NCBI GenBank assembly: GCA_902805535.1
Contig: CADCTN010000178.1
Coordinates: 1-33,326, forward strand
Source of the DNA: an uncultured Blastococcus sp.
GTDB lineage: Bacteria > Actinomycetota > Actinomycetes > Mycobacteriales > Geodermatophilaceae
DNA length: 33,326 nt
Direction of reading: 5' to 3'
Made by a program: the position numbers and the translations under genes. This document shows, piece after piece, positions 10,192 through 33,326 of the stretch. Under the pieces are notes generated by a model that was not told the origin of the DNA, ran no database searches, and saw nothing but the letters and a program-made list of their open reading frames with translations. Numbering within the stretch: position 1 is the stretch's first letter; each line of letters begins with the position of its first letter.

Positions 10192-10217
10192 GCGGCTCCA
10201 GCAGCTCCAGCCGGCCG
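10181..10217 (+). terminator. Stem-loop overlapping the topA stop codon (perfect 10-bp arms)
   Basis: CGGCCGGCTG (10181-10190) pairs with CAGCCGGCCG (10208-10217); lies between convergent topA and methyltransferase genes. Confidence 0.5.
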
Positions 10218-10226
10218 CGTCCGGAG

Positions 10227-11060
10227 TCAGTACGGGCGTGAACCGACGGCGAAGATCCGCCGGAAGGGCAGCAGGGTGGTGCCGTCCGGCCGCGGGGGAT
10301 AGGCCTCCCGCACGGCGGCGGCGTAGGCGGCGGTGAACGCGGCGCCGTCGTCCTTGCCGAGCTGCGCGAGGACTGGTCGCAGCTGGGTGCTGCGCACCCA
10401 GTCGACCACCGGGTCGGTGCCGGTCAGGACGTGCAGATAGGTGGTCTCCCACGCGTCGGTGGTGAGCCCGGCGCCGGTGAGCACGTCGTAGTAGCCGGAC
10501 GGCTCGAGGACCGCGCCGGTACCGCGGGGCACATCTGCCAGCCGCGCCGCCCAGCGCGGCGACCGGCACAGCTCGCCGAGGATCCGATGGGTGGGGAAGT
10601 CGAAGTTCCCGGGCACCTGGACCGCCAGCCAACCCCCCGGCGCGAGCCGGCCGGCCCACCGGGCGAGCAGCTCCTCGTGTCCGGGCACCCACTGCAGGAC
10701 CGCGTTGGTCACCAGGACGTCGACCGGCCCGGACGGCTGCCATTCCCGGACGTCGCCGGCGACGAACTCGACCTGGCCGGGGACGGCGTGGGCGGCCGCG
10801 GCGGCGAGCATGGTGTCCGACGAGTCCACGCCCGTGATCCGGGCACCCGGCCAGCGCTGCGCCAGTGACGCGGTGAGCGCCCCTTCACCGCAGCCGAGGT
10901 CCACGACGGTCGCCGGCGACTCCGCGGCGATCCGGGCCACCAGCTCGACGAACGGCCGGCCGCGCTCGCCGGCGAAGCGGAGGTAGCCCGCCGGATCCCA
11001 GACGGGCCCGGGGAGCCCGCCCGGCATCACGTCATGAGTCGTCCGCCGCGTGTCTGCCAC
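10227..11060 (-). CDS. tam: Class I SAM methyltransferase, trans-aconitate 2-methyltransferase-like (alternative start 11027)
   Basis: VVDLGCGEGALTASLAQRWPGARITGVDSS SAM motif; AVLQWVPGHEELLARWAGRLAPGGWLAVQVPGNFD, typical of Tam. Confidence 0.85.
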   Translation of the reverse strand: MADTRRTTHDVMPGGLPGPVWDPAGYLRFAGERGRPFVELVARIAAESPATVVDLGCGEGALTASLAQRWPGARITGVDSSDTMLAAAAAHAVPGQVEFVAGDVREWQPSGPVDVLVTNAVLQWVPGHEELLARWAGRLAPGGWLAVQVPGNFDFPTHRILGELCRSPRWAARLADVPRGTGAVLEPSGYYDVLTGAGLTTDAWETTYLHVLTGTDPVVDWVRSTQLRPVLAQLGKDDGAAFTAAYAAAVREAYPPRPDGTTLLPFRRIFAVGSRPY

Positions 11061-11166: not shown

Positions 11167-13542
11167 GTGAGGCTCGCCCAGGGACAGCTCGCCGCCCCTC
11201 CTCCGACCCCGGGAGCCCCGATTCCGTCCGACCCGACGTCCCCGGCACCGCCGCCCGACGAGGGGCGAGCGGCCGAGCGGACGACCCCTCCGGCCGACGG
11301 TCTGCCCCCCGCGGGCACGCCGGTACCGGCGGACGCCGCCGTGCCGCTGACCGAGCTCCAGCAGCGGGCGCGGCCGGACCAGGGGCACGCGGACGAGGAC
11401 CCCGATCCGGACCTGCTCGGCTCCGTCGGGCTGGTAGCCAAGCTCCGCGCGGTCCTGCGGGTGCGGGACTTCCGCAAGCTGTGGCTCTCCACGGCGCTGT
11501 CGAGCTTCGGTGACTGGCTCGGCCTGCTGGCGATCACGGCGATGGCCACCACGCTGGTCGACGGGTTCGCCGCGATGAACTTCGCACTGGGCGGTGTCCT
11601 GTTGTTCCGGCTGCTCCCCGCGATCGTCCTCGGCCCGCTGGCCGGCGCCTTCGCCGACCGGTTCGACCGGCGCAAGACGATGGTGACCACCGACATCATC
11701 CGGTTCGGGCTGTTCGCGTCGATCCCGATCGTCGACGACCTCGTCTGGCTGTTCGTCGCCCAGTTCCTCATCGAGGCCTTCAGCCTGTTCTGGATCCCGG
11801 CCAAGGACGCCGCGGTCCCCAACATGCTGCGCAAGGACCAGCTGGAGCCGGCCAACCAGCTCTCCCTCGTCACCACCTACGGGCTGACGCCCGTGCTGGC
11901 GGCCATCGTGTTCGCGCTGCTGGTGACGATCGGCGGACAGCTGCAGAGGGTGCTCCCGTCGGTCGACGAGGTCGACCTGGCGCTGTACCTGAACGCCCTG
12001 ACCTTCCTGGTCGCGGCCATCGTCATCTGGAACCTGCCCTCGATCAGCGGGCGGCGGGCGGCCGGCACCGTGATCGCGCAGGAGAGCTTCCTCGGCTCGC
12101 TCGTGCACGGCTTCTCCTTCGCCGGGCACACGCCGCTGGTGCGCGGCCTGGTGGTCGGCATCACCGGGGCCATGGCCGCCGCCGGCGTGGTCATCGCGAC
12201 GGGCCAGGCGTTCGCCAACGCCCTGGGCGGTGGGCAGGCGGCCTACGGGCTGCTGTTCGGCGCGGTCTTCATCGGTCTGGGTCTGGGCATCGCGCTGGGC
12301 CCGAGCATCGCCCGCGACCTGGCCAGGGAGCGCATCTTCGGCCTCGCGGTGTCCGTGGCCGGCGTGATGGTGCTGCTGATGGCGTGGGCCTTCGCGCTGT
12401 GGATCGCGCTGCTGCTGGTCGTCTTCATGGGCTTCTTCGCCGGCATCGCCTACCTCGCCGGCTTCACCCTGCTGGGCACCGAGGTGGAGGACGAGATCCG
12501 CGGCCGGACGTTCGCGATCGTCCAGTCGCTGGTCCGGGCGGCCCTGATCCTCTCGCTGGCGGTCGTGCCCTTCGGTGTCGGCCTCATCGGCCGGCACTCC
12601 CTCGACCTCGGCGTCGTCACCCTCCCGGTCACGGGGGAGCGGATCATGCTCTTCGTGGCCGGTCTGCTGGCGGTGGGCGTCGGCATCCTCGCCTACCGGC
12701 AGATGGACGACGGCCGGCCGGTGCCGCTGCTGGCCGACGTCGTCACCGCGCTGCGCCGCGACACCACGGCCCGTCGCCGCCTGGCCGGCGGTGGCGTGCT
12801 CATCGCCTTCGAGGGCGGTGAAGGGGCGGGGAAGTCCACCCAGGTCCGCAAGCTGCAGGAATGGCTCACCAACGAGGGCCTGGTCGCCCGGGCCACCTTC
12901 GAGCCCGGGGCCACGCCGTCCGGCGCCGGCATCCGGGCGATCGTCCTCGACAAGGCGCACGCGGGGATCTCCTCCCGCTCGGAGGCGCTGCTCTACGCCG
13001 CCGACCGCGCTCAGCACGTGCACGACGTCCTGCGCCCCGGCCTCGACGCGGGCGAGGTCGTCATCACCGACCGGTTCGTCGACAGCTCGCTGGCCTACCA
13101 GGGCGCCGGCCGGACCATCCCGCTCGACGACGTCCGCATGCTCTCGCGCTGGGCGACCCAGGGCGTGCAGCCCGACCTGACCATCCTGCTCGACCTGCCG
13201 CCGGAGGTGGGGCTGGCGCGTGCCCGGGGCCGCGCGGTCGCCGACCGGCTCGAATCCGAGTCGCTGGAGTTCCACCAGCGGGTGCGGCGCACCTTCCGGG
13301 CACTCGCCGAGACCGAGCCCGACCGTTATCTGGTGCTCGATGCCCGGGAGTCGCCCGACCAGCTCGCGGCCGCCATCCGGATCCGGGTCGCCGAGCTGCT
13401 GTCCGGGCTGCCCCTGCAGCAGCTGAGCCAGAACGTGCCGCCGCCGGCGGGCGAGGCCCCCCTCCGGCAGGAGGAGCTCGCCGCGTCCGGTCCGCACCGG
13501 CCGCACACCCAGACCGGCGCGACCCCCCACCTGCACCCGTGA
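11167..13542 (+). CDS. tmk: Bifunctional MFS-type membrane protein / thymidylate kinase fusion
   Basis: N-terminal MFS (FRKLWLSTALSSFGDWLGLLAI ... DRFDRRKTMV), C-terminal dTMP kinase from ~12.8 kb (IAFEGGEGAGKSTQ, TDRFVDSSLAYQGAGR). Continuous ORF; start codon uncertain (11050 or GTG 11167). Confidence 0.9.
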   Translation: MRLAQGQLAAPPPTPGAPIPSDPTSPAPPPDEGRAAERTTPPADGLPPAGTPVPADAAVPLTELQQRARPDQGHADEDPDPDLLGSVGLVAKLRAVLRVRDFRKLWLSTALSSFGDWLGLLAITAMATTLVDGFAAMNFALGGVLLFRLLPAIVLGPLAGAFADRFDRRKTMVTTDIIRFGLFASIPIVDDLVWLFVAQFLIEAFSLFWIPAKDAAVPNMLRKDQLEPANQLSLVTTYGLTPVLAAIVFALLVTIGGQLQRVLPSVDEVDLALYLNALTFLVAAIVIWNLPSISGRRAAGTVIAQESFLGSLVHGFSFAGHTPLVRGLVVGITGAMAAAGVVIATGQAFANALGGGQAAYGLLFGAVFIGLGLGIALGPSIARDLARERIFGLAVSVAGVMVLLMAWAFALWIALLLVVFMGFFAGIAYLAGFTLLGTEVEDEIRGRTFAIVQSLVRAALILSLAVVPFGVGLIGRHSLDLGVVTLPVTGERIMLFVAGLLAVGVGILAYRQMDDGRPVPLLADVVTALRRDTTARRRLAGGGVLIAFEGGEGAGKSTQVRKLQEWLTNEGLVARATFEPGATPSGAGIRAIVLDKAHAGISSRSEALLYAADRAQHVHDVLRPGLDAGEVVITDRFVDSSLAYQGAGRTIPLDDVRMLSRWATQGVQPDLTILLDLPPEVGLARARGRAVADRLESESLEFHQRVRRTFRALAETEPDRYLVLDARESPDQLAAAIRIRVAELLSGLPLQQLSQNVPPPAGEAPLRQEELAASGPHRPHTQTGATPHLHP

Positions 13543-14769: not shown

Positions 14770-14842
14770 GCCGCCTTAGCTCAGTCGGTAGAGCATCTCA
14801 CTCGTAATGAGAAGGTCGTCGGTTCGATTCCGACAGGCGGCT
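14770..14842 (+). tRNA. tRNA-Thr(CGT)
   Basis: Acceptor GCCGCCT/AGGCGGC, anticodon stem TCTCA-CTCGTAA-TGAGA with anticodon CGT, T-arm GTCGG-TTCGATT-CCGAC; CCA not encoded. Confidence 0.96.
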
Positions 14843-15054
14843 CCGCGCAGCAAGAACGCCCCCGGCCGGGCCTGGTCCAGATCCCGGCGCCACCACCGCT
14901 CCACCTGCCCGGCTGCGGGTTATCGACCGCCGCCGAGCTGTTGGGCGAGACCGCCGACCCGGCCCGGTTCCGCCGGTGCCTAACCTGAGCCGGTGAGTGA
15001 AGCCCCCGGCCCGGCCGAGCAGTCGTGGCGATCCGTCCACGCCCACGGTGCCTC

Positions 15055-15546
15055 GTGAGCGACGACGTGTGGCTCACCCTCGACCAGCAGCAGGTGGTGC
15101 GAGCGCACCTGCACGCCACGCAGCGGCTGTTCGCGGCGCTGGACCGCCAGATGCAGCGGGACGCCGGCTTTCCGCGCAGCGAGTACGAGATCCTGGTGCG
15201 GCTGTCCGAGGCGCCGGAGTGGCGGCTGCGGATGAGCGAGCTCGCGGCAGCCATGTTCTTCTCGCTCAGCCGGCTCTCCCATGCGGTCTCGCGCATGGAG
15301 CACGCGGGTCACGTGCGGCGCGAGGTCGTCACCGGGGCAGGTCGCCGCACCGATGTCATCCTCACCGACCAGGGCTACGCGACGCTGGTGGCGGCGGCGC
15401 CGGGGCATGTCGCCGCCGTCCGGGCGCTGCTGGTGGAGCGCCTGACCCCGGCGCAGCTGGACCAACTGCACGAGATCAGCCTGGCGCTGCTCGCGAACGG
15501 CGACGGCCCGGACGAGGTCGGTGACCTCCTGGCCGGACCTGCTTGA
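15055..15546 (+). CDS. MarR-family transcriptional regulator (start may be 15025)
   Basis: RMSELAAAMFFSLSRLSHAVSRMEHAGHVRREVVTGAGRRTDVILTDQG winged helix. Confidence 0.88.
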   Translation: MSDDVWLTLDQQQVVRAHLHATQRLFAALDRQMQRDAGFPRSEYEILVRLSEAPEWRLRMSELAAAMFFSLSRLSHAVSRMEHAGHVRREVVTGAGRRTDVILTDQGYATLVAAAPGHVAAVRALLVERLTPAQLDQLHEISLALLANGDGPDEVGDLLAGPA

Positions 15547-15597
15547 CGTTGACCGTTCAACAGGCGTAGACAGGGTGTAGCGAGTTGAACGGTCAAC
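15543..15597 (+). promoter_or_regulatory. Promoter with paired 14-bp operators (15548-15561 and 15584-15597)
   Basis: GTTGACCGTTCAAC and its exact reverse complement GTTGAACGGTCAAC; candidate -35 TTGACG 15543-15548, 18-bp spacer, -10 TAGACA 15567-15572. Confidence 0.75.
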
Positions 15598-15619
15598 ACG
15601 CTTGGCGTCTGGAGATCGC

Positions 15620-16291
15620 ATGACCACCCTCGGCATCCTCGGCAGCGGCAACATCGGCGCGACCTTCGCCCGCCTGGCCGTCCTGGCCGGGCACGACGTC
15701 GTGCTGTCCAACTCGCGGTCCCCGGAGACGCTCTGGCCGTTGGCCGCCGCGCTCGGCCCCCGGGCGCGCGCCGCCACCGCCCAGGAGGCGGCCGACGCCG
15801 GCGACGTGGTCCTGGTCAGCGTGCCTTTCGGGCGCTATCGGCAGCTGTCGGCCACGGCACTCACCGGCAAGGTGGTGCTGGACACCGGCAACTACTACCC
15901 GGACCGCGACGCGCAGTTCGCCGAGCTGGACGCCGCCCGGGCCACGACGAGCGGCATGGTCCAGGAGCACCTCGCCGGCGCACAGGTCGTCAAGGTGCTC
16001 AACAACATCTGGTTCCACCATCTGGGTCTCGCGGCCCGGCCGGCGGGAGCCCCCGACCGCAGCACCCTGCCCGTCGCCGGCGACCACCCGGACGCGAACA
16101 AGGTGGCCGCCGGCCTGCTGGACGAGCTCGGGTACGACACTCTGGACACCGGTGGCCTGGTCGACAGCTGGCGGTTCGAGCGCGACCAGCCGGCCTACGT
16201 CGCGCCCTACGGACCGTTCGACATGAGCGCGGGCACGACACCGGTCACAGCCGATGCACTCGCCGACGCGTTGGCCCGCGCCACCCGCTGA
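15620..16291 (+). CDS. NADPH-dependent F420 reductase-like NAD(P)-binding protein
   Basis: N-terminal LGILGSGNIGATFARLAVLAGHDVVLSNSR Rossmann fold; VVLDTGNYYPDRD, VVKVLNNIWFHHL. Confidence 0.8.
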   Translation: MTTLGILGSGNIGATFARLAVLAGHDVVLSNSRSPETLWPLAAALGPRARAATAQEAADAGDVVLVSVPFGRYRQLSATALTGKVVLDTGNYYPDRDAQFAELDAARATTSGMVQEHLAGAQVVKVLNNIWFHHLGLAARPAGAPDRSTLPVAGDHPDANKVAAGLLDELGYDTLDTGGLVDSWRFERDQPAYVAPYGPFDMSAGTTPVTADALADALARATR

Positions 16292-16379
16292 GCCCGCCGG
16301 ATCGTGTCGGCCACCACGCGGCAGTAGGTCGTCGCCACGTGCGCGGCGGGGACGCCGGTGAGCTGGTCGGACGAGTGCC

Positions 16380-16925
16380 TCAGCTGGCCAGCGGCCAGCG
16401 CAGGCCGACCTTGTTCTCGTCCGGGTCCACGACCATGGCGAAGCGGATGTCCCCGCCGGACCAGGTGATCGGCGCCTGGTAGCTGACCGCGCCGGCGGCG
16501 ACGAGCTCGTCGTGCTTGGCGGTCACCTCGTCGGCGTTGCGGAACCCGAACTCCAGGGTCACCTTGCGGTCCCCGTTCCCGGTGCCGGTGGGCTGGTAGG
16601 TCGAGTCGAACCCCGCCTGGGTGTACTCGACGGTCTCCCACACGAAGATCGTGTCGTTGGGCATCCGGAAGCGCACCGCGCCGCCGCTGGTGTCCACGTC
16701 GGCCGGAACGGCCAGCCCCAAGCGCCGGTAGAACTCCAGCGACCGCGGGATGTCGGCGACGATCAGCCCGACGATGCCCAGCCCCAGAGTGCCGCCGGGG
16801 ACGGGGGGGCTGGGCGTGTCGGCGGCCGTCGGGGGAGTGGTGGAGCTGCAGGCTGCGAGGGCCGCGGTGGCGAGGGCGCCGACCGAGCCCAGCAGCATCG
16901 TGCGCCGGCTGGACGTGCTGACCAT
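16380..16925 (-). CDS. Exported lipoprotein with VOC/glyoxalase-like domain
   Basis: MVSTSSRRTMLLGSVGALATAALAACSS (twin-Arg + lipobox) followed by GIVGLIVADIPRSLEFYRRLGLAVPADVD...; RBS GGGGAGAG before ATG 16925 (longer ORF to 16970 possible). Confidence 0.83.
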   Translation of the reverse strand: MVSTSSRRTMLLGSVGALATAALAACSSTTPPTAADTPSPPVPGGTLGLGIVGLIVADIPRSLEFYRRLGLAVPADVDTSGGAVRFRMPNDTIFVWETVEYTQAGFDSTYQPTGTGNGDRKVTLEFGFRNADEVTAKHDELVAAGAVSYQAPITWSGGDIRFAMVVDPDENKVGLRWPLAS

Positions 16926-16960
16926 GGTCTCTCCCCGAGGCGTCATCCGAGTGCCGTGAA

Positions 16961-17010
16961 GGTTCAACACAACACCGACCGTTCTACCCGTGTTGAACGG
17001 TCAACGTCAA
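16961..17010 (-). promoter_or_regulatory. Second copy of the MarR-module promoter/operator, driving the VOC lipoprotein
   Basis: Minus strand TTGACGTTGACCGTTCAACACGGGTAGAAC (17010-16981), with half operator GTTGAACC at 16968-16961. Confidence 0.72.
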
Positions 17011-20910: not shown

Positions 20911-21747
20911 TCACGCAGCCAGGGTCCCACTGTCGACGGGAAGTGATGCGCCGGTGATGTAGCGGGCCTCGTCGGAGGCGAGGAACAGCACGGCGTTGCT
21001 GATGTCGATCGGCTCGACCCACGGGTTCGGGAGAAGCCCCATGCCGCGGGAGATCTCGGCGAAGTCGTCGATGGTCGGCTCGTCCAGGTGCGGCAGGAAC
21101 AGGCGCCACGACTTCTGGTTCATGATCATGGGGGTGTTCGTCTGCGTGGGGAGAACCGCATTGACCCGGATGGCATGCTCGCCGAGCTCGATGGCCATGG
21201 ACTTCATCAGGCCCTGAACCCCGTGCTTGGCCGCGACATAGTGCGAGATGTTGGGGTAAGCCCGGATGCCGGCAACCGAGGTGGTCAGGATCACCGAGCC
21301 ACCGCGCCCTCCCGCGACGATGTGCGCGATCGACGCCTTGCACGTGTGCCACACCCCTGTCAGGTTGACGTCGAGCAGGAGCTGCCACTCCTCCTGGTCC
21401 AGCTCGTCCGTGCGACCGTGCTTGTTGCCGATCCCGGCGTTGGCGCTGACGATGTCGAGCCGGCCGAACCGCTCCACGCCCTCGTCGACGGCTGCCACGA
21501 GCTCGGAGAGGTTACGGACATCAGCCTTCCGGGCCACGATGCAGCCACCGACGCTCTCCACCATCCGGACCGTCTCGGCGAGGTCCTCCTCCGAACCGCC
21601 CGGGTAGCCCCGCCCAGGGATGTCGACGCAGGCGTCGATGGCGATGATGTCGGCACCTTCCTCCGCGAGGCGGACCGCGTGGGACCGCCCCTGTCCCCTC
21701 GCTGCCCCGGTGATGAACGCGACCTTGCCTTCGACTCGCCCTGCCAT
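20911..21747 (-). CDS. Mycofactocin-coupled SDR family oxidoreductase
   Basis: GKVAFITGAARGQGRSHAVRLAEEGADIIAIDAC, YVAAKHG catalytic motif, VLPTQTNTPMIMN, typical of the TIGR03971-type subgroup. Confidence 0.88.
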   Translation of the reverse strand: MAGRVEGKVAFITGAARGQGRSHAVRLAEEGADIIAIDACVDIPGRGYPGGSEEDLAETVRMVESVGGCIVARKADVRNLSELVAAVDEGVERFGRLDIVSANAGIGNKHGRTDELDQEEWQLLLDVNLTGVWHTCKASIAHIVAGGRGGSVILTTSVAGIRAYPNISHYVAAKHGVQGLMKSMAIELGEHAIRVNAVLPTQTNTPMIMNQKSWRLFLPHLDEPTIDDFAEISRGMGLLPNPWVEPIDISNAVLFLASDEARYITGASLPVDSGTLAA

Positions 21748-21819: not shown

Positions 21820-22983
21820 TCAGCGCACGAGACGAAAGAAGCTGCGGATGTCCGCCAGTAGGAGCTCAGGCTCCTCGAGCGACGCGAAGTGCCCCCCTCG
21901 CGGCATGGCGGTGAACTGCCGGAGGTCGTACCGCGCCTCCACCCAGGGACGGATGGCCGGAAGATTCTCCTTGGGGAAGGCGGCGAAGCCGGTCGGGACC
22001 TCGACCTTGGGGTACTCGTACGCCGCGTTGTCGTGGCGTCGCTCGTAGTACATCCGCGCTGACGAGGCGATCGAGTTCGGCGCCCAATAGAACATGAGAT
22101 TCGTCAGCAGGACGTCCTTGCTCAGCGACTCCTCGAAGTGGTCATCCCAGTCGCTCCAGCTGCGGAACTTCTCGACGATCCATGCCGCGAGCCCAGCCGG
22201 TGAGTCGGCCTGGGCGATGGCCACTGACATCGGCCGGGTCGCCTGCTGCAGCCAGTAGCCCCACTCCTCCTGGAGGAAGTGCCGGCGCCTCGCTATCGCC
22301 TCGCGCGCCTCGGGCGTCTCGGACTGCGCCGGATCGTCCATGTCGATCTGGCTGCTCGCGATGCCGAAGTTGAGGTGCAGCCCGATGACCGACTCGGGGT
22401 ACATCGATGCGACCTTGGAGGTGATCATGGCCCCCCAGTCGCCGCCTTGCATGCCGAAGCGGTCGTATCCCAGGGAGGTCATCAGCGTGTGCATCGCCCT
22501 CGCGCATCGCTCCAGACCCCAGCCCGGTTCCCGCGGTTGCCCTCCGAAGCCGTAGCCCGGCAGGGAAGGGATCACCAGGTCGACGGCGTCCTGCGCTTCC
22601 CCGCCGTGGTGCACCGGATCTGTCAGTGGCTCGATGAGGTGCTGGAACTCCACGATCGAACCGGGCCACCCGTGGGCCAGTAGCAGGGGGATGGCGTCAG
22701 GGGATCCGCTGCGGACCCACCAGAAGTGCAGGTCGACTCCGTCGACCTCGCAGAGGTACAGCGGGAACCGGTTGAGGGACCGTTCCTGGGCGCGCCAGTC
22801 GTACTCGTCCCTCCAGTAGTCGCACAGCTCTCTGATGTAGCTCACGTCGGCGCCGGCGTCCCACCCGGTCCCCGGAACCGGTTCCGCCCAGCGGGTGTTC
22901 GAGAGGCGTCGGTGCAGGTCGTCGAGGACCGTCTGTGGCACAGCGATGGGCGCTGGGCGGACACGCTCGTCGCGAGGGTGCAT
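21820..22983 (-). CDS. Epoxide hydrolase with EHN domain (start may be GTG 23121)
   Basis: LDDLHRRLSNTRW EHN start, LLAHGWPGSIVEFQHLIEPL, nucleophile GGDWGA, late PRGGHFASLEEPELL. Confidence 0.92.
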   Translation of the reverse strand: MHPRDERVRPAPIAVPQTVLDDLHRRLSNTRWAEPVPGTGWDAGADVSYIRELCDYWRDEYDWRAQERSLNRFPLYLCEVDGVDLHFWWVRSGSPDAIPLLLAHGWPGSIVEFQHLIEPLTDPVHHGGEAQDAVDLVIPSLPGYGFGGQPREPGWGLERCARAMHTLMTSLGYDRFGMQGGDWGAMITSKVASMYPESVIGLHLNFGIASSQIDMDDPAQSETPEAREAIARRRHFLQEEWGYWLQQATRPMSVAIAQADSPAGLAAWIVEKFRSWSDWDDHFEESLSKDVLLTNLMFYWAPNSIASSARMYYERRHDNAAYEYPKVEVPTGFAAFPKENLPAIRPWVEARYDLRQFTAMPRGGHFASLEEPELLLADIRSFFRLVR

Positions 22984-23117
22984 GACGGTCTGCTCATGGT
23001 CAGGCCCGACCGGCGGGCCGGTCGCGGCACCGCGCGAGTCCGGGGCGGTGTTCCGCACCGCAGTGACGGGTACCGCTGTACGGAACGGTTCGTCTCGACT
23101 GGCCGTGCCGCGGTCGC

Positions 23118-23861
23118 TCACAGCCGCAGCCCCCCACTGGCTTCGATGATCTGGGCCGTGACCCACCCGGACTCCTCCGAGGCGAGGAAGGCCACCAGGC
23201 CGACGATGTCCGACACCTGCCCGATGCGGCCATGCGCTGTCAGCGAGCTGATTCGCTGCCTCGCCTCCTCATCGAGCCAATCCGCGGTCATGTCGGTGTC
23301 GTAGACGCCGGGAACGACGGAGTTGACGGTGATCCCCCGCGGCCCCAGTGCTTCGGCCAAGGAGAGCGTCACGTTCTGCATCGCGGCCTTCGTGGGTCCG
23401 TAGGCGCAGGCGCGCGGCATCGCGACCCGGGTCGACACCGACGAGATGTTGATGATCCTGCCGCCGTCGCTCATCGTCCTCAGGGCTCCCTGCGTCAGGA
23501 AGAAGGGGCCTCGAAAGTTGGTCTCGACCAGGCGATCGAAGATCTCCGGGGTGATGGTGTCCATCTCCCCGCTGAACGAGAAGCCGGCATTGTTGACCAG
23601 GATGTCGATCCGGCCCTCGTGCGCGTCGACGTCGGCCAGCAGTCGGTCGACCTGTGTCAGATCGCGGAGATCCGCGGCGATGGGCCGGGCCTCACCTCCC
23701 GCGGCGACGATCGAGCGGACTGTCTCGTCCGCTGCGGCCGCGTCGGCGCCGAAGTGGACGATGACCTTCGAGCCGTCCGCGGCCAGCCGCTGGGCGATCG
23801 CTCTGCCGATGCCACGGCTTGCGCCCGTGACGATGGCGATCGTGCCGGTGGATGAGGGCAT
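23118..23861 (-). CDS. SDR family oxidoreductase (FabG-like)
   Basis: TIAIVTGASRGIGRAIAQRLAADG, NNAGFSFSG, YGPTKAAM active site. Confidence 0.92.
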   Translation of the reverse strand: MPSSTGTIAIVTGASRGIGRAIAQRLAADGSKVIVHFGADAAAADETVRSIVAAGGEARPIAADLRDLTQVDRLLADVDAHEGRIDILVNNAGFSFSGEMDTITPEIFDRLVETNFRGPFFLTQGALRTMSDGGRIINISSVSTRVAMPRACAYGPTKAAMQNVTLSLAEALGPRGITVNSVVPGVYDTDMTADWLDEEARQRISSLTAHGRIGQVSDIVGLVAFLASEESGWVTAQIIEASGGLRL

Positions 23862-23925: not shown

Positions 23926-25113
23926 TCAGCGGGAGTGGCTCATCGGTCTGGTGAGCGTGGGCCGGAGTCGTCCGAGCTCCCGGGCCGCGCCGAACCCCAC
24001 GAGGCCCGCCAGTTGGTCATTCCTGACGTAGCCGATGACCGAGCCACGGATCTGTCCGCCCGAGAGGGCCTCGCCCTCCAGCGGCACCACGTGATCGGCG
24101 TCGTCGGTGTGCCCGACGACCTGGATCTTGATCCCGAACTGGTCCGACCAGACGTAGGGTGGCTTGTCCGTCGGCGGCAGCACTCCCATGATGGAGTGCG
24201 CGACGACGCTGGCCTGGACGGTCGCCGACGTCCAGTGCTCACGTCGTCGGAACGTCCCTGTGTCGTCCTGCCACGCCGCAACATCGCCCACGGCCCAGAC
24301 ATCGGTCAGTCCGAGGACGCGCCCGCTGCCATCGCAGCGGATCCCGTCGGCGAGATCGAGACCCGGACGTGCCAGCCAGCCGACGTCAGGCACGCCGCCG
24401 ATGCCGACGACCGTGACGTCGGCACCGATGCTCGTGCCGTCGGCGAGGTGGATCTCGGTGGCGTCGCTGGACGGGTCGGAGAACCCTGTCACCTGCGCGT
24501 TCGTACGAAGATCCACGCCGGCCTCACGCATGAGGCGAGCGCAGATGTCCCCGACGCCTGCGCCCAGGGTGCGCGCGAAAGGAGTGGCTGCCGATTCCAG
24601 GACGGTGACGGCCATCCCTCGCTTCAGCGCGCTGCTCGCCACCTCGGCACCGACGAAGCCACTGCCGACCACGAGCAGGGACCGGGCCTGCTCCATGGCG
24701 GCGCGCAACCGGTGCGCGTCATCGATCGTCCGAAGGCTCAGCGCAGACTCGGGCTGACCCGGAAGTCGGCGGGCGATCACGCCGGTGGCAAGGACGATCG
24801 AGTCGGCTGACCACACGGTCCCATCCGTCGTCTCGACCTCGCCGGTTCGCAGCGCGCACACGCGTTGCCCCGGGACGAGTTCGACGCCCAACGCCTCGAA
24901 GTCCGCAGGACCGCGCAGAGAGAGCTGATGGGCCTGCCAGGCACCGGTCAGCAGCTGCTTCGAGAGGGGTGGGCGGTCATAGGGCAGGTGGGTCTCCTCA
25001 CCCACCATGGTGATGCGTCCGGTGTGGCCGAGGTCCCGTACGTGCTCGGCGACGCGCAGGCCACCCAGTCCGGTACCCACCACCAGGACATCGGAGCGAG
25101 CGGCTGTGTTCAC
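23926..25113 (-). CDS. NAD(P)/FAD-dependent ferredoxin reductase (P450 partner; alternative start 25134)
   Basis: VLVVGTGLGGLRVAEHVRDLGHTGRITMVGEETHLPYDRPPLSKQLL, LLVVGSGFVGAEVASS, VWAVGDVAAW. Confidence 0.93.
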   Translation of the reverse strand: MNTAARSDVLVVGTGLGGLRVAEHVRDLGHTGRITMVGEETHLPYDRPPLSKQLLTGAWQAHQLSLRGPADFEALGVELVPGQRVCALRTGEVETTDGTVWSADSIVLATGVIARRLPGQPESALSLRTIDDAHRLRAAMEQARSLLVVGSGFVGAEVASSALKRGMAVTVLESAATPFARTLGAGVGDICARLMREAGVDLRTNAQVTGFSDPSSDATEIHLADGTSIGADVTVVGIGGVPDVGWLARPGLDLADGIRCDGSGRVLGLTDVWAVGDVAAWQDDTGTFRRREHWTSATVQASVVAHSIMGVLPPTDKPPYVWSDQFGIKIQVVGHTDDADHVVPLEGEALSGGQIRGSVIGYVRNDQLAGLVGFGAARELGRLRPTLTRPMSHSR

Positions 25114-25255
25114 AGGAATCCTTCGCCCATCCATGTTCTGCTCAGCAGTACTAGATTATGTCAGGTGGGATACCGTAGCGTGTAGCGTGCCTCACATCAA
25201 GGCGCCCAGACGACCGGGATCGCATGCGTGCACTCACACAGAAGGAGGTCCTCCG

Positions 25256-26664: not shown

Positions 26665-27528
26665 TCACTCCCTCGTGATCCCGCGAGGGGGCCCCAGAGC
26701 CGCCGCCAGCAGGTCGTCCATGCTGGCGGCGGCGATGCGGGCCGCCTCCGACGCGCCCTTGGCCTCGAGCTCGGAGCTGATCACCTCCGGGCCCACGCAG
26801 GCCAGTGCGCCGATGGCGTCGAGCTCTCGGATCACGCGAACCAGGTCGAAGCTCCCGTCCCCGGGGAGGCGTCTCTCCCGGGTGTCCTCGAGCAGGGTTC
26901 CCCGTAGCTCTGCCAAGGCGTCGCTGACCTGCACGGCGAAGATCCGGTCGCCCGGAACGGCCGCGAGCGTCGCGAAGTCAGGTGTCCCGCGGAAGAAGTG
27001 CCACGTGTCGAACACCAGACCGCCGTTCACCGCAGCGGCGTCACGGACGATCCGCCACGCCTCCGCCAGAGTCGCCACGTGGGTCATGGGGATGAATTCC
27101 AGCTGGACGCGGGCTCCCAGGTCGCCCGCACGGCGAGAGACGTCGGCGAACGGCTCGGCGAGCTCGGGGATCGACCGGTCACCGAGCACGCCGATGTTGG
27201 CCATCGCGCTCAGGGCCACTGCCCCGAGCTCCTCGGCACACCGCAACGCGTCGTCGGTGGAGTATCGACTGAACGGCGAGGTGGAGGTGGCGGACACGTC
27301 GTCGTACCAGTTCATGATGGGGTCGATCACGATCTCGAGCCCCGCTCCTCGGATGCGCTTGCCCAGCTCGCGAGCGCTCCGGCCTTCGGCCGCAGCCTGC
27401 TCGACGTCGGCGGGGCCGATGCTGAGCTGGTGGTATCCGTGGTCCCGGGCCGCGACGATGCGGGGCTCGACGGCGCTGAACAGCCCCACGGTCCCGGACC
27501 AGAGCGTTCTCGTGCCGATGGGATTCAC
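26665..27528 (-). CDS. Sugar phosphate isomerase/epimerase-like TIM barrel protein
   Basis: QLEFIPMTHVATLAEAWRIV, GLVFDTWHFFRGT, IFAVQVSDA; ATGA overlap with the upstream epoxide hydrolase. Confidence 0.82.
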   Translation of the reverse strand: MNPIGTRTLWSGTVGLFSAVEPRIVAARDHGYHQLSIGPADVEQAAAEGRSARELGKRIRGAGLEIVIDPIMNWYDDVSATSTSPFSRYSTDDALRCAEELGAVALSAMANIGVLGDRSIPELAEPFADVSRRAGDLGARVQLEFIPMTHVATLAEAWRIVRDAAAVNGGLVFDTWHFFRGTPDFATLAAVPGDRIFAVQVSDALAELRGTLLEDTRERRLPGDGSFDLVRVIRELDAIGALACVGPEVISSELEAKGASEAARIAAASMDDLLAAALGPPRGITRE

Positions 27529-28712
27529 CGCGCGCCTCGGGCTTCGGTCGGGGAGTCCAGTGCGCCCTCCGCGACGAGGTCGTTGAAGAACGCGGCGATG
27601 TCCGGGGCGAGCGTCTCGGGACTCTCCACGGCAGGGAAGTGACCCCCTCGTTCCATCACGGTGTAGCGCCGGAGGTTGAAGTTCGCCTCCACCCAGGATC
27701 GTGGATACGCGCCGGTCTCCTTGGGATAGGCCGCGACGGCCGTGGGGACCGACGTGATGGGGGCGGTCGTCGGTGGCGCGACCCGCTGGCGGCCCATCGT
27801 CTCGCGGTAGAAGCGGGCTGCGGTACCGACCGAGCCGGTGAACCAGAAGATCGACAGCGTCGTGAGCAACCAGTCCCGGGGATAGGCAGAGGCAAGATCC
27901 CCGTCGTGGTCGGTCCAGTTGTGGATCTTGTCCAGCAGCCAGGCAGCCATCGCTACGGGGGAGTCGTCGAGGTAGGCGATCGTCTGGGGCCGGGTGGACT
28001 GCATGTGCAGGTAGCCGGAGCCACTCTGCGCCTGAGACTCCGCGGCTGTCTGGCGGGACGTCTCGTCCGGTGCCCAGGCAGGCCTGGTGCGGTTCGTCGG
28101 CGACAGGTCGAGCGGCACGGGCATCGTGGTATGGAGTCCCACGACGATGTCGGGGTGGTCGTGCGCCAGCCGCTCACCTATCAACGCACCCCAGTCGGTG
28201 CCGTAGACGCCGTAGCGTCGATGGCCCAGGACCTCGGTCATCAGCTCGTGGAACAGCGCGGCTGTCTCCGTCACGCCGATTCCGGTCCCGCGGAGCGGTA
28301 CCGAGAATCCTTGGCCGGGTAGGTCCGGCACGACCAGCTCGAACCCGTCGAGCCGCGGCAGAACCTCCGCGAAGTCCCAGGACGTCTGGGGCCAGCCGCC
28401 CACCAGGAGCAGCGGAAGAGCCCCGGCTCTGCGAACGTGGATGTAGTGCAGGACCTGGCCTTGCGCGATGGCTCGGAAGTGGTCCCACTCGTTCATCCGC
28501 GACTCGTGCTCTCGCCAGTCGTAGCCGCCGGCCCACTCGTCGGCCAGCTGTCTCAGCCAGTTCAGCTCCGTCCCGTACTGCCAGCTCTCGTTGCCGAGGT
28601 CGCTCGGCCAGCGAGTCCTGGACAGTCGGTGACGCAGATCGGCCACGTCCGCGTCGTCGATGCGGATCTCGAACTGCTCGACGGGCAGATGGCCCGGTCG
28701 CCTGGTCGGCAC
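27525..28712 (-). CDS. Second EHN-domain epoxide hydrolase-like protein
   Basis: FEIRIDDADVADLRHRLSRTRWPSD, LLLVGGWPQTSWDF, GTDWGALIGERLA, ERGGHFPAVESPE; GTG start with GGAGG RBS. Confidence 0.88.
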   Translation of the reverse strand: MPTRRPGHLPVEQFEIRIDDADVADLRHRLSRTRWPSDLGNESWQYGTELNWLRQLADEWAGGYDWREHESRMNEWDHFRAIAQGQVLHYIHVRRAGALPLLLVGGWPQTSWDFAEVLPRLDGFELVVPDLPGQGFSVPLRGTGIGVTETAALFHELMTEVLGHRRYGVYGTDWGALIGERLAHDHPDIVVGLHTTMPVPLDLSPTNRTRPAWAPDETSRQTAAESQAQSGSGYLHMQSTRPQTIAYLDDSPVAMAAWLLDKIHNWTDHDGDLASAYPRDWLLTTLSIFWFTGSVGTAARFYRETMGRQRVAPPTTAPITSVPTAVAAYPKETGAYPRSWVEANFNLRRYTVMERGGHFPAVESPETLAPDIAAFFNDLVAEGALDSPTEARGAR

Positions 28713-28834
28713 GGTATTTTCCTCCGATGGTCCGGGTACCGCGGCCGCTGGACAGTGCCGCGCGGGAGTGACGGACTTCGCTTCCTCGTGTGCTGCCTCT
28801 CGGCTCCTCCGGGCGCCCATCGGTGGCGCCCTGG

Positions 28835-29227
28835 CTAGGAGACCGCGACGATCGGAAGAGCCCGGTGGGACATGCGTGCCTGCTCCCAGTGAGCGGTGAG
28901 CTCCGTGGCCTGTGGAGTCATCCGGTCGGGAGTCCACAGCTGTTCGCCGAGGATCTCGACGTCGACGGACGTGACCCCTTCCACTGCCAGGCCGGCCGTG
29001 CGCAAGCTGCTCATGATCTCCACCATGTAGACGCAGACCGGGTCATCGATGACGAGGCTGACCAGGGCGTTGCCCTCGTCGTCCAGGGTGACGTCCTCGA
29101 TCATGCCGAGGTCGGTGAACGTCAGGTTGGTCCCGTTGTGGACGCTGCACGGGTCCTTGACCGTGGCCAGGCTCGCGCGCAGACGGCCGGCCACGTCCTC
29201 GTGGGTGCCCGGACGTCGGGTCGGCAT
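28835..29227 (-). CDS. DUF59/MIP18-like metal-sulfur cluster assembly factor
   Basis: LATVKDPCSVHNGTNLTFTDLGMIEDVTLDDEGNALVSLVIDDPVCVYMVEIM; ATG overlaps amidohydrolase stop. Confidence 0.75.
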   Translation of the reverse strand: MPTRRPGTHEDVAGRLRASLATVKDPCSVHNGTNLTFTDLGMIEDVTLDDEGNALVSLVIDDPVCVYMVEIMSSLRTAGLAVEGVTSVDVEILGEQLWTPDRMTPQATELTAHWEQARMSHRALPIVAVS

Positions 29228-30324
29228 CACGCCGGCACCGCAGCGCCTGCACCGTGGCCGGCGCGGACGTTGGACCAGGGCGCCTCGAGCCCAGCCGCCT
29301 GTCGCCGGCTCACGTCGTCGTCGGCGATGCGGGTGCGGAACTCGTCCGCGTCGATTCCGTGGAGAGCGAGATAGTTCAGGCCGAGGATCTTCTCCTTGAT
29401 CTCGGCGGTGAGCTCAGGACGTCCCATCTCCTCGACCAGATCTCGGGGCATCTCGAAGTCGAGGAAGGCCCGGAGCGCGAGGCTCGGGTGGCTGAGTGAG
29501 AAGCCGGAGGCGTAGAAGATGCGGTCCTGTGCCCCCGCGCCCAGCAGTACGCCCATGAACTCGGCGAAGCGCCGTGGCTGCAGTGTCAGGATGGCGAACG
29601 ACGTCTCCAGGTTGAACACGCAGTTGGGGTGGGCCGAGGCGAGGAACGCGGTGCTCTCGACGAATGCCATTCCCGAGTGCACGATCTCGAATCTCATGTC
29701 GGGGAACATCGCGGCGGCGGCTGGGACGTCGTCCACCCCGTACGGCTGTGAACGGACCGGCCCGATGGGGATGGCCTTGTGGGAGGCGACGACGCTGATC
29801 CCACGCGCGAGAGCGCGCTCGATCATGGGGTAGGCGACCTCCTCGTCGTCGAGCGGGTTGGCAACAGTGCGTCGATCGATGAATCGTGCGGCGTAGAGCT
29901 TGAGACCTGAGACGCCGGCCTCTGCCAGCCGGTCGACCTCCTCCTCGATCTGCTGCGGGCTGTCGAAGGACCAGGGGTCGATGGCGCCGTAGGCGATGAC
30001 GCGCCCGGGGTGCTTCGCCAGCAGCTCGTATCCCTTGTGGTTCGCGGAGTGACCATCTCGGAAGAAGTCGTAGATGGGAGTTCCGTGATAGCCGATGAGG
30101 TCGACCCCCGTCTCGTAGAACAGGGCGTCGGAGATGTGATCGGCCTGCCAGTCCTGGCTGAATTCGCCTTCGGTCAGCCGCAACTCCGGGTTGTCCTTGG
30201 TGAAGCGCTCGTGGAAGCGATAGGAGCCCTGGACGATCCTCGCCGAGTCCGGCAGGACGAGATTCTCGGGAGTCCAGTTGTAGGCGTGAGCTGTCGCGTC
30301 GGCGACGATCATCCCGTTGATCAT
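29227..30324 (-). CDS. Amidohydrolase family protein (amidohydrolase_2/ACMSD-like)
   Basis: MIVADATAHAYNWTPENLV, GVSGLKLYAARF, VVASHKA, FEIVHSGMAFVES, FNLETSFAIL, RIFYASGFS; RBS GAGGAG. Confidence 0.85.
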   Translation of the reverse strand: MINGMIVADATAHAYNWTPENLVLPDSARIVQGSYRFHERFTKDNPELRLTEGEFSQDWQADHISDALFYETGVDLIGYHGTPIYDFFRDGHSANHKGYELLAKHPGRVIAYGAIDPWSFDSPQQIEEEVDRLAEAGVSGLKLYAARFIDRRTVANPLDDEEVAYPMIERALARGISVVASHKAIPIGPVRSQPYGVDDVPAAAAMFPDMRFEIVHSGMAFVESTAFLASAHPNCVFNLETSFAILTLQPRRFAEFMGVLLGAGAQDRIFYASGFSLSHPSLALRAFLDFEMPRDLVEEMGRPELTAEIKEKILGLNYLALHGIDADEFRTRIADDDVSRRQAAGLEAPWSNVRAGHGAGAAVPA

Positions 30325-30403
30325 GAGTTTCTCCTCGTGCCGGGCCCAAGGCGCGTGAGCGCCTCGGTCGGACGGAGCACCGGGCGCTTTTGTCTACCGA
30401 ACG

Positions 30404-30418
30404 TACCGCCAAGCGGTA
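30404..30418. promoter_or_regulatory. TetR-like operator palindrome TACCGC-CAA-GCGGTA
   Basis: Perfect 6-bp arms in the divergent amidohydrolase / dehydrogenase intergenic region. Confidence 0.5.
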
Positions 30419-30568
30419 ACCTAGTCTAGCCTGCAGAACAGTAGGCGTCAGGGACCCGTTCGCTGGCGGGTGCGGAGCGCGCCTGAGCGAGTTCTCACAT
30501 GGTGCCACCCGGGCCTCATCCGGGAACCGGCGAAGTGCGGGCACGCAGACGACGTGAGGTGGGACGTC

Positions 30569-31414
30569 ATGAGAGCTGGAGTCATCGGACTCGGCCAGAT
30601 CGGCAGCGGGGTGGCACTCTGCCTCGCGCGAGAAGGCCTTCTCGCGGGAGTGTTCGACGTGCGCAGCGACGCAGCCGAGCAGCTGGACGCCGTACCCGCC
30701 ATGGCCGGCTCGCCCGCCGAGGTCGCCGCCGCGTGCGACGTCGTCATCGTCTCGGTCGTCGATGCAGCTCAGACCATCGACGTCCTGAGCGGGCCCGAGG
30801 GCGTGCTGTCCGCGGTGGGCGAGGGGGCGAGCATCGTGCTGGTCGCGACCGTCTCGCTCGACCAGCTGGACCGGATCCGGGCGCTGACCAGTGCTGCCGG
30901 CGTATCGCTCGTCGACTGCGGGGTCGTCGGCGGGCTGGCCGCCGCTCAGAAGGGGCTGATCTGCCTGGTCGGCGCGACCGATGCCGAGCTCGCGCGGGTG
31001 CGCCCGGTGCTCGACGGGTTCGCCAGGTCTGTCGAACACGTCGGCGGCCCAGGGATGGGCATGGCGGCGAAGATCACCCGCAACGCGATCCTGCACCTCT
31101 GTCTCATGGCGGGCTACGAGGGCGCCGCGCTGGCAAGAGCCGCTGGACTGGATGTGGAGCGCCTGGCGCGGATCGTCGACAGCAGCGCCGACACCGTCGT
31201 CGGCCCTCTTCACTTCATGACGCTGCCGGACCCGACGTCGACCTCCGAGGAGACGTCGCGCCGTGCGGGTCTGCAGGCGGTCATGGGCAAGGACATCGAC
31301 GCAGCGCTCGAGCTTGCCCGCTCCCACGATCTGTCCTTGCCGGCCCTGGAACGCGTCCGCGGCCTTCTGCCGCAGGTCGTCGGGTTTCCCCTGGAAGCGC
31401 CGGCCGGGCGATGA
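30569..31414 (+). CDS. NAD(P)-dependent beta-hydroxyacid dehydrogenase (6-phosphogluconate dehydrogenase-like fold)
   Basis: MRAGVIGLGQIGSGVALCLAREGL, VSLVDCGVVGG, GGPGMGMAAKITRNAI, LQAVMGKDIDAALELA. Confidence 0.88.
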   Translation: MRAGVIGLGQIGSGVALCLAREGLLAGVFDVRSDAAEQLDAVPAMAGSPAEVAAACDVVIVSVVDAAQTIDVLSGPEGVLSAVGEGASIVLVATVSLDQLDRIRALTSAAGVSLVDCGVVGGLAAAQKGLICLVGATDAELARVRPVLDGFARSVEHVGGPGMGMAAKITRNAILHLCLMAGYEGAALARAAGLDVERLARIVDSSADTVVGPLHFMTLPDPTSTSEETSRRAGLQAVMGKDIDAALELARSHDLSLPALERVRGLLPQVVGFPLEAPAGR

Positions 31415-31456
31415 ACGAGTGGACGGCGGTCGGCGCCGACCTCGAGCGGTGCCTCC

Positions 31457-31477
31457 CAGAATACGATTCTGCAGAAT
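31457..31477. promoter_or_regulatory. Operator-like triple half-site CAGAAT-ACG-ATTCTG-CAGAAT
   Basis: 15-bp palindrome CAGAAT-N3-ATTCTG overlapping a 12-bp palindrome ATTCTGCAGAAT, next to TATAGT (possible -10). Confidence 0.5.
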
Positions 31478-31561
31478 GGGTTATAGTGTGAGCCACGGTG
31501 GGCATGCTCACGATGCCCCTCCCGCCTGGGGCCGTCCAGAAGTGGCACGAAGGGCAGTGCG

Positions 31562-32512
31562 GTGGTGACCTCGACGACTCGGCTGAGATCCCTCCTCGCA
31601 CAGCCGGGCCTGGTGGTGGCCGGTTGCTTCGACGCATTGTCGGCCCGCATGGCGGAGGTGGCGGGATTCGAAGCGGCGTACGTCAGTGGCTTCGCCGTCG
31701 AAGCCAGTCAGCTGGGGAGTCCGGACGTCGGGGTCATCACCCGTACGGAGATGGCGACGCATGCCGGCCGCATCGCATCCGCCGTGGACATCCCACTGAT
31801 CTGCGACGTCGACACGGGCTACGGAGACGTCCTCAACGTGGCACGCACGATCAGGGAGTTCGAGCGTGCCGGCGTAGCGGCTGTTCAGATCGAGGACCAG
31901 CCTGAGCCCAAGAGGTGCCCGCTGGTCGAGGACCGAACGGTCCTGCCACTCGATCAGGCTCTCCGGCGCCTGGGGGCAGCGCTGGAAGCGCGCACCGATC
32001 CGGACTTCTTCATCATCGCCCGTACCGACGCCGACGAGCTCTCCTTCGATGATGCTGTGACGCGCGCACGCGCCTACGTGACGGCTGGGGCCGACGCCGT
32101 GATGTCGCCGCTGTCCGGACTCGTCGACGGAGTGCCGTTCCGCCGCCTGGCCCCCGAGGACCAGATGGAGTGGCACCGCCGGTTCTGCGCCGAGGTCGGC
32201 GGACCCGTCTTCGGGTTGTCCATCCCGGCGACCTGTACCGCGACCGACATGTTCGCCGCGGGGTATCACGCGATGATCCTGCCCACGCTGAGCTTCCGGG
32301 CCGCCGCCATCGCCATGATGGCCTCGCTGCGCGAGGCGCGGGTGGACGGGACGGCCACCGAGTACTTCGCGAGACAGCCGGACGAGGAGCAGGCGGTAGG
32401 CCTCGGCCTCCTCAGAATGCTGGGCCTCGAGGCCGACCTGGAGCTGAGACGCCGGTTCGGATCCGATCCGCGTGTGCACCCGAAAGGAAGTCAGCCATGG
32501 GAAGCACGATGA
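31562..32512 (+). CDS. Isocitrate lyase / PEP mutase family protein (2-methylisocitrate or dimethylmalate lyase-like)
   Basis: GCFDALSARMAEVAGFEAAYVSGFAVEAS, LICDVDTGYGDVLNVARTIREFERAGVAAVQIEDQPEPKRCPL, IIARTDA. Confidence 0.9.
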   Translation: MVTSTTRLRSLLAQPGLVVAGCFDALSARMAEVAGFEAAYVSGFAVEASQLGSPDVGVITRTEMATHAGRIASAVDIPLICDVDTGYGDVLNVARTIREFERAGVAAVQIEDQPEPKRCPLVEDRTVLPLDQALRRLGAALEARTDPDFFIIARTDADELSFDDAVTRARAYVTAGADAVMSPLSGLVDGVPFRRLAPEDQMEWHRRFCAEVGGPVFGLSIPATCTATDMFAAGYHAMILPTLSFRAAAIAMMASLREARVDGTATEYFARQPDEEQAVGLGLLRMLGLEADLELRRRFGSDPRVHPKGSQPWEAR

Positions 32513-33326
32513 CCGCCAAGATACTGGCGAGGGCCGCCGGCAAGGATGTCGTGGAAGCAGGGGACGTCCTGCTGGCAGACGTGGACGTACTCACGGTGCC
32601 GGACGCGGAGCGGTTCATCGACGTCTTCGTGGACGAGGGTCTGCGCGTGTGGGACCCGAGCCGCATCGTCTTCTGCTTCGACCACTTCTTCGCCGACTGG
32701 ATGCCGTCCGGTGCGGTACGGGAGCATCCCAAGATCCACAGGTTCAGCGAGGACCAGGGCATCCCGCGCGACCAGATCTACGACCTCGACCGCAACGGCC
32801 TGTCCCACCAGGTGCCGGTCGAGGAGGGCTGGATCCTGCCGGGCACGGTGTCGATCGGCGCCGACACCCAGAGCGCGACCATGGGTGCGATGAACTGCTT
32901 CAGCATGCCGGCACTCTCCTCGGGGACCACAGCGGTCGCGCTGACCGGGAAGTGGTGGATCGTCGTTCCCGAGTGCATTCGCATCAACCTGACAGGTGCG
33001 TTGCCGGCCGGCGTGCTGGGCAAGGACGTCGCCTACCGGCTCATCAGGGACATGGGTGGCTTCGTCGACGGACGGGTGCTCGAGTTCGCCGGTCCGGGGG
33101 TGGCCTCCCTGCCCATCGACGTCCGCATGGGGATCGCCAATGGGGCGATCCAGATCGGCGCGCAGACCGTCGTGTTCCCCGGCGACCAGCGACTCCTCGA
33201 CTACCTCCGACCGCGCGCCCGCGCGCCGTTCGTCACGGTCGAGCCCGATGAGGACGCCCCGTACTACCGCACGATCGACTACGACCTGTCCACGTTCGAG
33301 TGCCTGGTCTCCGGGCCTCATGAGAT
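32497..33326 (+). CDS. LeuC/aconitase-family hydro-lyase large subunit, diverged, truncated by window edge
   Basis: Manual translation (no stop in window, so absent from the ORF track): MGSTMTAKILARAAGKDVVEAGD..., FCFDHFFADWM, LSHQVPVEEGWILPGTVSIGADTQSATMGAMN, KWWIVVPECIRINLTGALPAGVLGKDVAYRLI, LPIDVRMGIANGAIQIGAQTVVFPGD; RBS AAAGGAAG. Confidence 0.83.
   Translation, partial: MGSTMTAKILARAAGKDVVEAGDVLLADVDVLTVPDAERFIDVFVDEGLRVWDPSRIVFCFDHFFADWMPSGAVREHPKIHRFSEDQGIPRDQIYDLDRNGLSHQVPVEEGWILPGTVSIGADTQSATMGAMNCFSMPALSSGTTAVALTGKWWIVVPECIRINLTGALPAGVLGKDVAYRLIRDMGGFVDGRVLEFAGPGVASLPIDVRMGIANGAIQIGAQTVVFPGDQRLLDYLRPRARAPFVTVEPDEDAPYYRTIDYDLSTFECLVSGPHE

Follow-up and report, generated by a model that had tools for sequence, protein, structure and literature searches.

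The right end of an actinobacterial contig of 33,326 bp (here, the window, i.e., the whole stretch of DNA that was analyzed) encodes a β-hydroxyacid dehydrogenase (bHAD), a lyase of the isocitrate lyase (ICL)/PEP mutase superfamily, and a LeuC-type large subunit, which raises the question of whether these proteins catalyze a common pathway and, if so, on what kind of substrate. The preliminary description compared them to the Hgd, Dml, and DmdA proteins of 2,3-dimethylmalate metabolism in Eubacterium barkeri. The reading toward which we lean is narrower: the lyase, together with LeuC and a LeuD subunit encoded past the contig end, would act as a two-step module of catabolism, placed at the lower end of an island headed by an oxygenase, on a substrate shifted in the part that faces the changed active-site pockets.

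The window represents an entire contig (C178) of a draft genome (3.4 Mb in 242 contigs, 85% complete), so the LeuC gene is truncated by the assembly. The GC content is 74% to the left of 17 kb and 68% to the right of it; this composition shift, at about 16 to 17 kb, suggests acquired DNA. Together with a tRNA gene, the drop marks a likely island boundary (Table 1), at which no integrase was seen. The setting was correctly recognized as aerobic and P450 based, as the island encodes a P450 with its full complement of ferredoxin and reductase, together with two epoxide hydrolases. A mycofactocin radical-SAM gene is found elsewhere in the same genome, which fits with the mycofactocin-coupled short-chain dehydrogenase (SDR) of the island. 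The pair of genes for an Amidohydrolase_2 and a DUF59/MIP18-like protein recurs on catabolic plasmids of Sphingopyxis, Rhodococcus, and Bradyrhizobium, where it is accompanied by SDRs, limonene-epoxide-hydrolase-like proteins, or flavin monooxygenases.

Table 1. Features of the window discussed in the text
Feature	Position	Strand	Remarks
tRNA-Thr	14770-14844		With the GC drop, marks the likely island boundary (14770-17000)
Mycofactocin-coupled SDR	20911-21747	-	TIGR03971, above cut-off
Epoxide hydrolase 1	21820-23166	-	EHN and alpha/beta fold
Ferredoxin reductase	23926-25134	-	Completes the P450 electron chain
Cytochrome P450	25007-26479	+	Probably starts only some 250-270 nt into the ORF
Single-cluster ferredoxin, 62 aa	26476-26664	+	Overlaps the P450 stop; completes the P450 redox chain
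Epoxide hydrolase 2	27525-28937	-	EHN and alpha/beta fold
MIP18/DUF59-like protein	28835-29230	-	
Amidohydrolase_2	29227-30324	-	Paired with the DUF59-type gene, as on other catabolic plasmids
Inverted repeat TACCGC-CAA-GCGGTA	30404-30418		Divergent amidohydrolase/bHAD intergenic region
bHAD, HIBADH/6PGDH superfamily	30569-31414	+	NAD_binding_2, 3e-27; NAD_binding_11, 3.3e-9
Perfect 12-bp palindrome ATTCTGCAGAAT	31466-31477		bHAD-lyase gap
CPL-type lyase, ICL/PEP mutase superfamily	31562-32512	+	PEP_mutase, 2.2e-45
LeuC-type large subunit	32497-33326 (contig end)	+	Aconitase, 1e-33; N-terminal 276 of 428 residues

The three genes are codirectional, and the last two overlap (by 16 bp), as was originally noted; their family matches (1e-27 to 1e-45), long frames, and coding-type GC3 are far beyond chance. 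The genes for bHAD and the lyase are separated by a gap of 147 bp that contains the palindrome, so all three genes need not share one transcript. This palindrome is a possible operator of a separate promoter for the lyase-LeuC-LeuD genes, and the inverted repeat could likewise serve as an operator. No convincing second copies of either were found, and no σ70-like promoter or terminator-like site was detected in the region from 30200 to 32600.

The main test proposed for the dimethylmalate interpretation was the presence of a LeuD partner past position 33326. Such a gene was found in contig NZ_CADCTE010000179.1, assigned to the bin of an uncultured Arthrobacter and retrieved in a search that covered a single genome for each species, as well as in Sphingomonas formosensis. 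Positions 1 to 1049 of the Arthrobacter-binned contig correspond to positions 32278 to 33326 of the window (1,049 bp, 98.9% identity, 12 mismatches, no gap). It completes LeuC, a protein of 428 aa (positions 220 to 1506 of that contig), and continues with a LeuD-type gene at about 1503 to 2069 that overlaps the LeuC stop; the combined gene order is lyase-LeuC-LeuD, with overlapping genes. Pfam did not recognize LeuD in the long ORF of this contig, whereas a profile made from its sequence and that of its Sphingomonas relative matched PDB entry 3vba (4.9e-30) and had the leud and LeuD/DmdB family models as its best NCBIfam matches, all of them under the cut-off. These profile matches identify the small subunit as a true LeuD. 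Beyond LeuD, the contig goes on with genes for an aldehyde dehydrogenase, a periplasmic protein like those that bind substrate for branched-chain-amino-acid transporters, an alcohol dehydrogenase that approaches the NDMA-dependent type (421 bits versus a cut-off of 440), an SDR, a glyoxalase-fold protein, and ABC transporter components.

Searches with Aconitase, Aconitase_C, and the DNA of the overlapping contig did not detect the remainder of LeuC or LeuD in the draft genome to which the window is assigned. High identity of the Arthrobacter bin to the window is confined to the 1,049-bp contig end, and the overlapping contig resembles the right arm of the window in GC content (67.5% versus 68%) and in tetranucleotide profile (correlation of 0.96). 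Given this match in composition and the shared end in different bins, either the island extends over two bins, of which one is probably misassigned, or the contigs come from two strains; the shared end is a sign of mis-binning (a split bin) or of strain variants in the source metagenomes.

In S. formosensis, the genes for LeuC, LeuD (positions 11281 to 11790 of the locus), and the lyase are also found side by side, next to genes for a KshA-type Rieske oxygenase, a reductase, a metallo-β-lactamase-fold hydrolase, and an opposite-strand bHAD. Compared to the window proteins, LeuC is 60% identical, and the lyase is 51% identical over 236 residues and 45% overall; the two LeuDs (S. formosensis and the overlapping contig) are 40% identical. 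Because the same genes are adjacent in this genome too, the lyase and the hydratase form a true module, and this module is conserved in two phyla, being present in Actinomycetota and Alphaproteobacteria. No description of this gene combination was found in the open-access literature.

Alignment of the window lyase shows conservation of the core residues D55, D82, D84, E111, C119, and R154, and the equivalents of Asp58, Asp85, Asp87, Glu115, Cys123, and Arg158 are retained in all lyases of the CPL type; Asp58, Glu115, Cys123, and the Arg residue have been discussed as mechanistic in ICL and methylisocitrate lyase (PMC7609661). The KRCGH loop reads KRCPL in the window lyase, with Cys kept and Gly-His lost, the equivalents of PrpB E188 and N210 are lost, and there is an extra segment around residues 184 to 200. 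The set of CPL lyases includes five members, from the window, S. formosensis, Sphingomonas paeninsulae, Citricoccus, and one Sphingomonadales genome (L040). All five contain KRCP or KHCP and the extra segment and have no equivalents of Glu188 and Asn210, whereas most other lyases of the superfamily that were compared read KRCGH or KKCGH. In a tree that included canonical plasmid lyases and solved enzymes, the CPL lyases formed a single group with support of 100/100. This clade is rare: at an E value of 1e-75, it was detected in 1 of 398 genomes of Actinomycetota (the genome of the window), 2 of 401 genomes of Sphingomonadales, and 1 of 387 genomes of Alphaproteobacteria (S. formosensis again). 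Predicted structures were too poor for use, with a mean pLDDT of 63 for LeuD and 53 for the lyase.

All five CPL lyases, a small and nonrandom sample of loci collected by similarity, are encoded near an O2-dependent oxygenase, which is a P450 in the window and Citricoccus, a Rieske oxygenase in S. formosensis and S. paeninsulae, and a TauD-type enzyme in L040. For comparison, a flavin monooxygenase-type gene is found near one of six annotated canonical-lyase loci that were inspected (in Variovorax). No LeuCD is listed near the lyases of Citricoccus and S. paeninsulae (two of the five loci), so the lyase can exist without LeuCD. In L040 (positions 8186 to 10515), a gene for an MmgE/PrpD-family dehydratase overlaps the start of the CPL lyase gene, and the TauD-type dioxygenase gene is divergent; the combination of a hydratase with this lyase thus recurs with a different hydratase.

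The LeuC profile matched 4nqy over the full length (2.3e-89), including all cluster cysteines. The three 4Fe-4S cysteines are encoded outside the window, in the motifs IGSCSSGR and GCGGC of the overlapping contig, and all are kept, the latter motif reading GCGAC in S. formosensis. When read against aconitase (1aco) and the Methanocaldococcus jannaschii isopropylmalate isomerase (IPMI), the LeuCs from the window and S. formosensis retain Asp-His, His147, and Asp165 but have DTQ in place of DSH (aconitase positions 165 to 167) and Gln in place of Glu262. Both LeuDs have G(S/T)GHAHY where others have GxGSSR; with His, Ala, and His replacing Ser642, Ser643, and Arg644, the catalytic Ser and the substrate-binding Arg are, by alignment, missing. 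Among the comparison proteins, DSH and Glu are kept in all seven other LeuCs and GSSR in all seven other LeuDs. The two DTQ-containing LeuCs group together with full support (100/100); their long stem weakly adjoins the LeuCs of the canonical lyase cassettes of Ancylobacter and Streptantibioticus. Ser642 has been described as the general base across the aconitase superfamily, and even the divergent AcnX retains and requires its counterpart (PMC8184944).

These observations can be combined into a route in which a hydrocarbon (cyclic or branched) or a terpenoid would first be turned into an acid by the P450 with its ferredoxin and reductase, the two epoxide hydrolases, and several dehydrogenases. 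The LeuCD-type iron-sulfur enzyme would then convert a branched acid, unsaturated or hydroxylated, into a 2-hydroxy acid, either by hydration or by an isomerization through dehydration and rehydration, and the Mg-dependent lyase would perform retro-aldol cleavage between C2 and C3, releasing a 2-oxoacid of the pyruvate type along with another fragment. The same order of steps, with a hydroxyl added or moved before the C2-C3 bond is cut, is known from methylcitrate and dimethylmalate catabolism. The mechanistic core is kept, namely, the Mg-binding aspartates, Glu, Arg, and the Cys acid of the lyase and the cluster cysteines, Asp-His, His147, and Asp165 of LeuCD. The changes affect all three polypeptides: Ser166, His167, and Glu262 in LeuC; Ser642, Ser643, and Arg644 in LeuD; and the Gly-His, Glu188, and Asn210 positions in the lyase. 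As is general for these families, we take the changed positions to be those where the carbon on the carbanion side, with its carboxylate, is bound or acted upon. With the core kept and carbanion-side residues changed in three proteins, a substrate that differs at that position is the simplest joint explanation. Its carbanion side probably carries a group other than an ordinary free carboxylate, or a bulky ring remnant from P450 oxidation and epoxide hydrolysis. Without Ser642 as the base and without Arg644, LeuCD could also catalyze a different reaction or even be inactive.

A stronger departure, which we regard as unlikely but deserving attention, is that LeuCD uses a reaction without a Ser base, through His acid-base or cluster Lewis-acid chemistry, and that the lyase substrate is activated by a ketone, an aldehyde, or a ring rather than by a carboxylate. 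The absence of a general base that is preserved in AcnX is in line with such chemistry, as are the changes of Arg644, His167, and Glu262 common to two phyla and the matching losses in the lyase. However, this reading is alignment based: the loop contains a two-residue insertion, and a Ser/Thr located two positions earlier (GSG/GTG) might act as the base. AcnX, which includes cis-3-hydroxyproline and mevalonate 5-phosphate dehydratases, is likewise a divergent aconitase branch with new substrates, but it keeps the base Ser and changes the cluster, whereas the module keeps the cluster cysteines and is missing the Ser.

The original proposal, that the genes functionally reproduce the hgd/dml/dmdAB logic of E. 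barkeri with 2,3-dimethylmalate or a closely related alkylmalate as the substrate, appears improbable. The nicotinate fermentation enzymes Hgd, DmdAB, and Dml share three superfamilies with the window proteins and the sequence of hydration followed by retro-aldol cleavage; all parts match by family, including a small subunit that resembles DmdAB in matching the LeuD/DmdB family model, and the hydratase adjoins the lyase. In contrast to E. barkeri, the module has altered active sites and an aerobic P450 context, and bHAD is not tied to it. The lyase scored higher with methylisocitrate lyase 3eoo (146 bits) than with 2,3-dimethylmalate lyase 3fa3 (118 bits) and belongs to a clade of its own; its best curated model was prpB (TIGR02317; 201 bits, cut-off 354), with no dimethylmalate lyase model among its matches. 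LeuCD reached no curated cut-off and has the DTQ, Gln, and HAH changes, in a comparison set without DmdA, DmdB, and Dml from E. barkeri. As had been anticipated, the lyase and LeuC both fall outside the models for oxaloacetate decarboxylase and ordinary IPMI. By its sequences, the module resembles the lower pathway of E. barkeri in outline, with replacements at the active-site positions that would mark membership.

The bHAD contains the catalytic Lys motif GMGMAAKITRN. It scored 83 bits with E. barkeri Hgd (3cky) and 98 bits with a 6PGDH-family protein (3w6u), and it was below all equivalog cut-offs. The S. formosensis bHAD is encoded about 4 kb from the module; the nearest plasmid homologue, from Novosphingobium (55.5% identity), is encoded about 6 kb from a P450, and neither a lyase nor LeuCD is listed up to 12 kb away. 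As the S. formosensis counterpart is only 30% identical and the Novosphingobium one is found without lyase or LeuCD, bHAD is not established as a module member; it is perhaps a loosely linked neighbor without a specific tie to Hgd.

Among known systems, PrpB of the methylcitrate cycle (1mum and 3eoo) provides the nearest solved lyases, which have the core Mg, Cys, and Arg residues in common with the window lyase but differ from it in having KRCGH instead of KRCP, in Glu188 and Asn210, and in the extra segment. Similarly, both subunits of the M. jannaschii isopropylmalate/citramalate isomerase LeuCD (4nqy, 4kp1, and 3vba) are homologous to the module proteins over the full length, with the cluster cysteines kept; the module has DTQ for DSH, Gln for Glu262, and HAH for SSR. 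The same gene set, lyase-LeuC-LeuD, forms cassettes on plasmids of aerobes (Ancylobacter, Pseudoroseomonas, Variovorax RA8, Streptantibioticus, and Cupriavidus), which demonstrates the general hydratase-lyase logic. Unlike the window module, these cassettes have KRCGH or KKCGH lyases and LeuCD with DSH, Glu, and GSSR. At 7.4 to 15.4 kb of the Variovorax RA8 plasmid locus, the cassette is accompanied by genes for an isochorismatase-type hydrolase, a flavin monooxygenase-type protein, and a flavin reductase, and it may serve the cleavage of an N-heterocyclic ring to an alkylmaleate.

Thus, the earlier interpretation holds for the LeuD partner, the recurring lyase-LeuCD set, and the aerobic island and gives way on specific kinship to Hgd, Dml, and DmdAB. 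With active sites changed in all three proteins of the module, a simple substrate of the dimethylmalate type is disfavored, and the suggested branched C5-C7 dicarboxylate is partly undercut. That the lyase and LeuC genes are unrelated neighbors in a mosaic, partly decayed island would agree with the weak bHAD linkage, the rare distribution, and the composition shift at about 16 to 17 kb, but it is made very improbable by the S. formosensis locus, with its LeuC-LeuD-lyase set and shared derived motifs in a second phylum, and by the intact, overlapping frames.

The preferred reading, a two-step module with a shifted substrate, can be extended, tentatively, to a new branch of the aconitase superfamily, with the cluster Cys residues kept and Gly-His-Ala-His in place of Ser642 and Arg644, that has coevolved with a new clade of ICL-superfamily lyases; such a pair may hydrate and cleave an intermediate not doubly activated by carboxylates, in oxygenase-led catabolism in Actinomycetota and Alphaproteobacteria. 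As the catalytic Ser has been described as the general base of the superfamily, with a counterpart even in AcnX (PMC8184944), a LeuCD that carries the cluster but lacks this residue would broaden the range of reactions known for these enzymes. The lyase and LeuCD are both soluble and accessible to assay, and the CPL lyase clade, with an oxygenase nearby each time, offers a sequence handle on an unrecorded ending of the aerobic degradation of branched or cyclic compounds.
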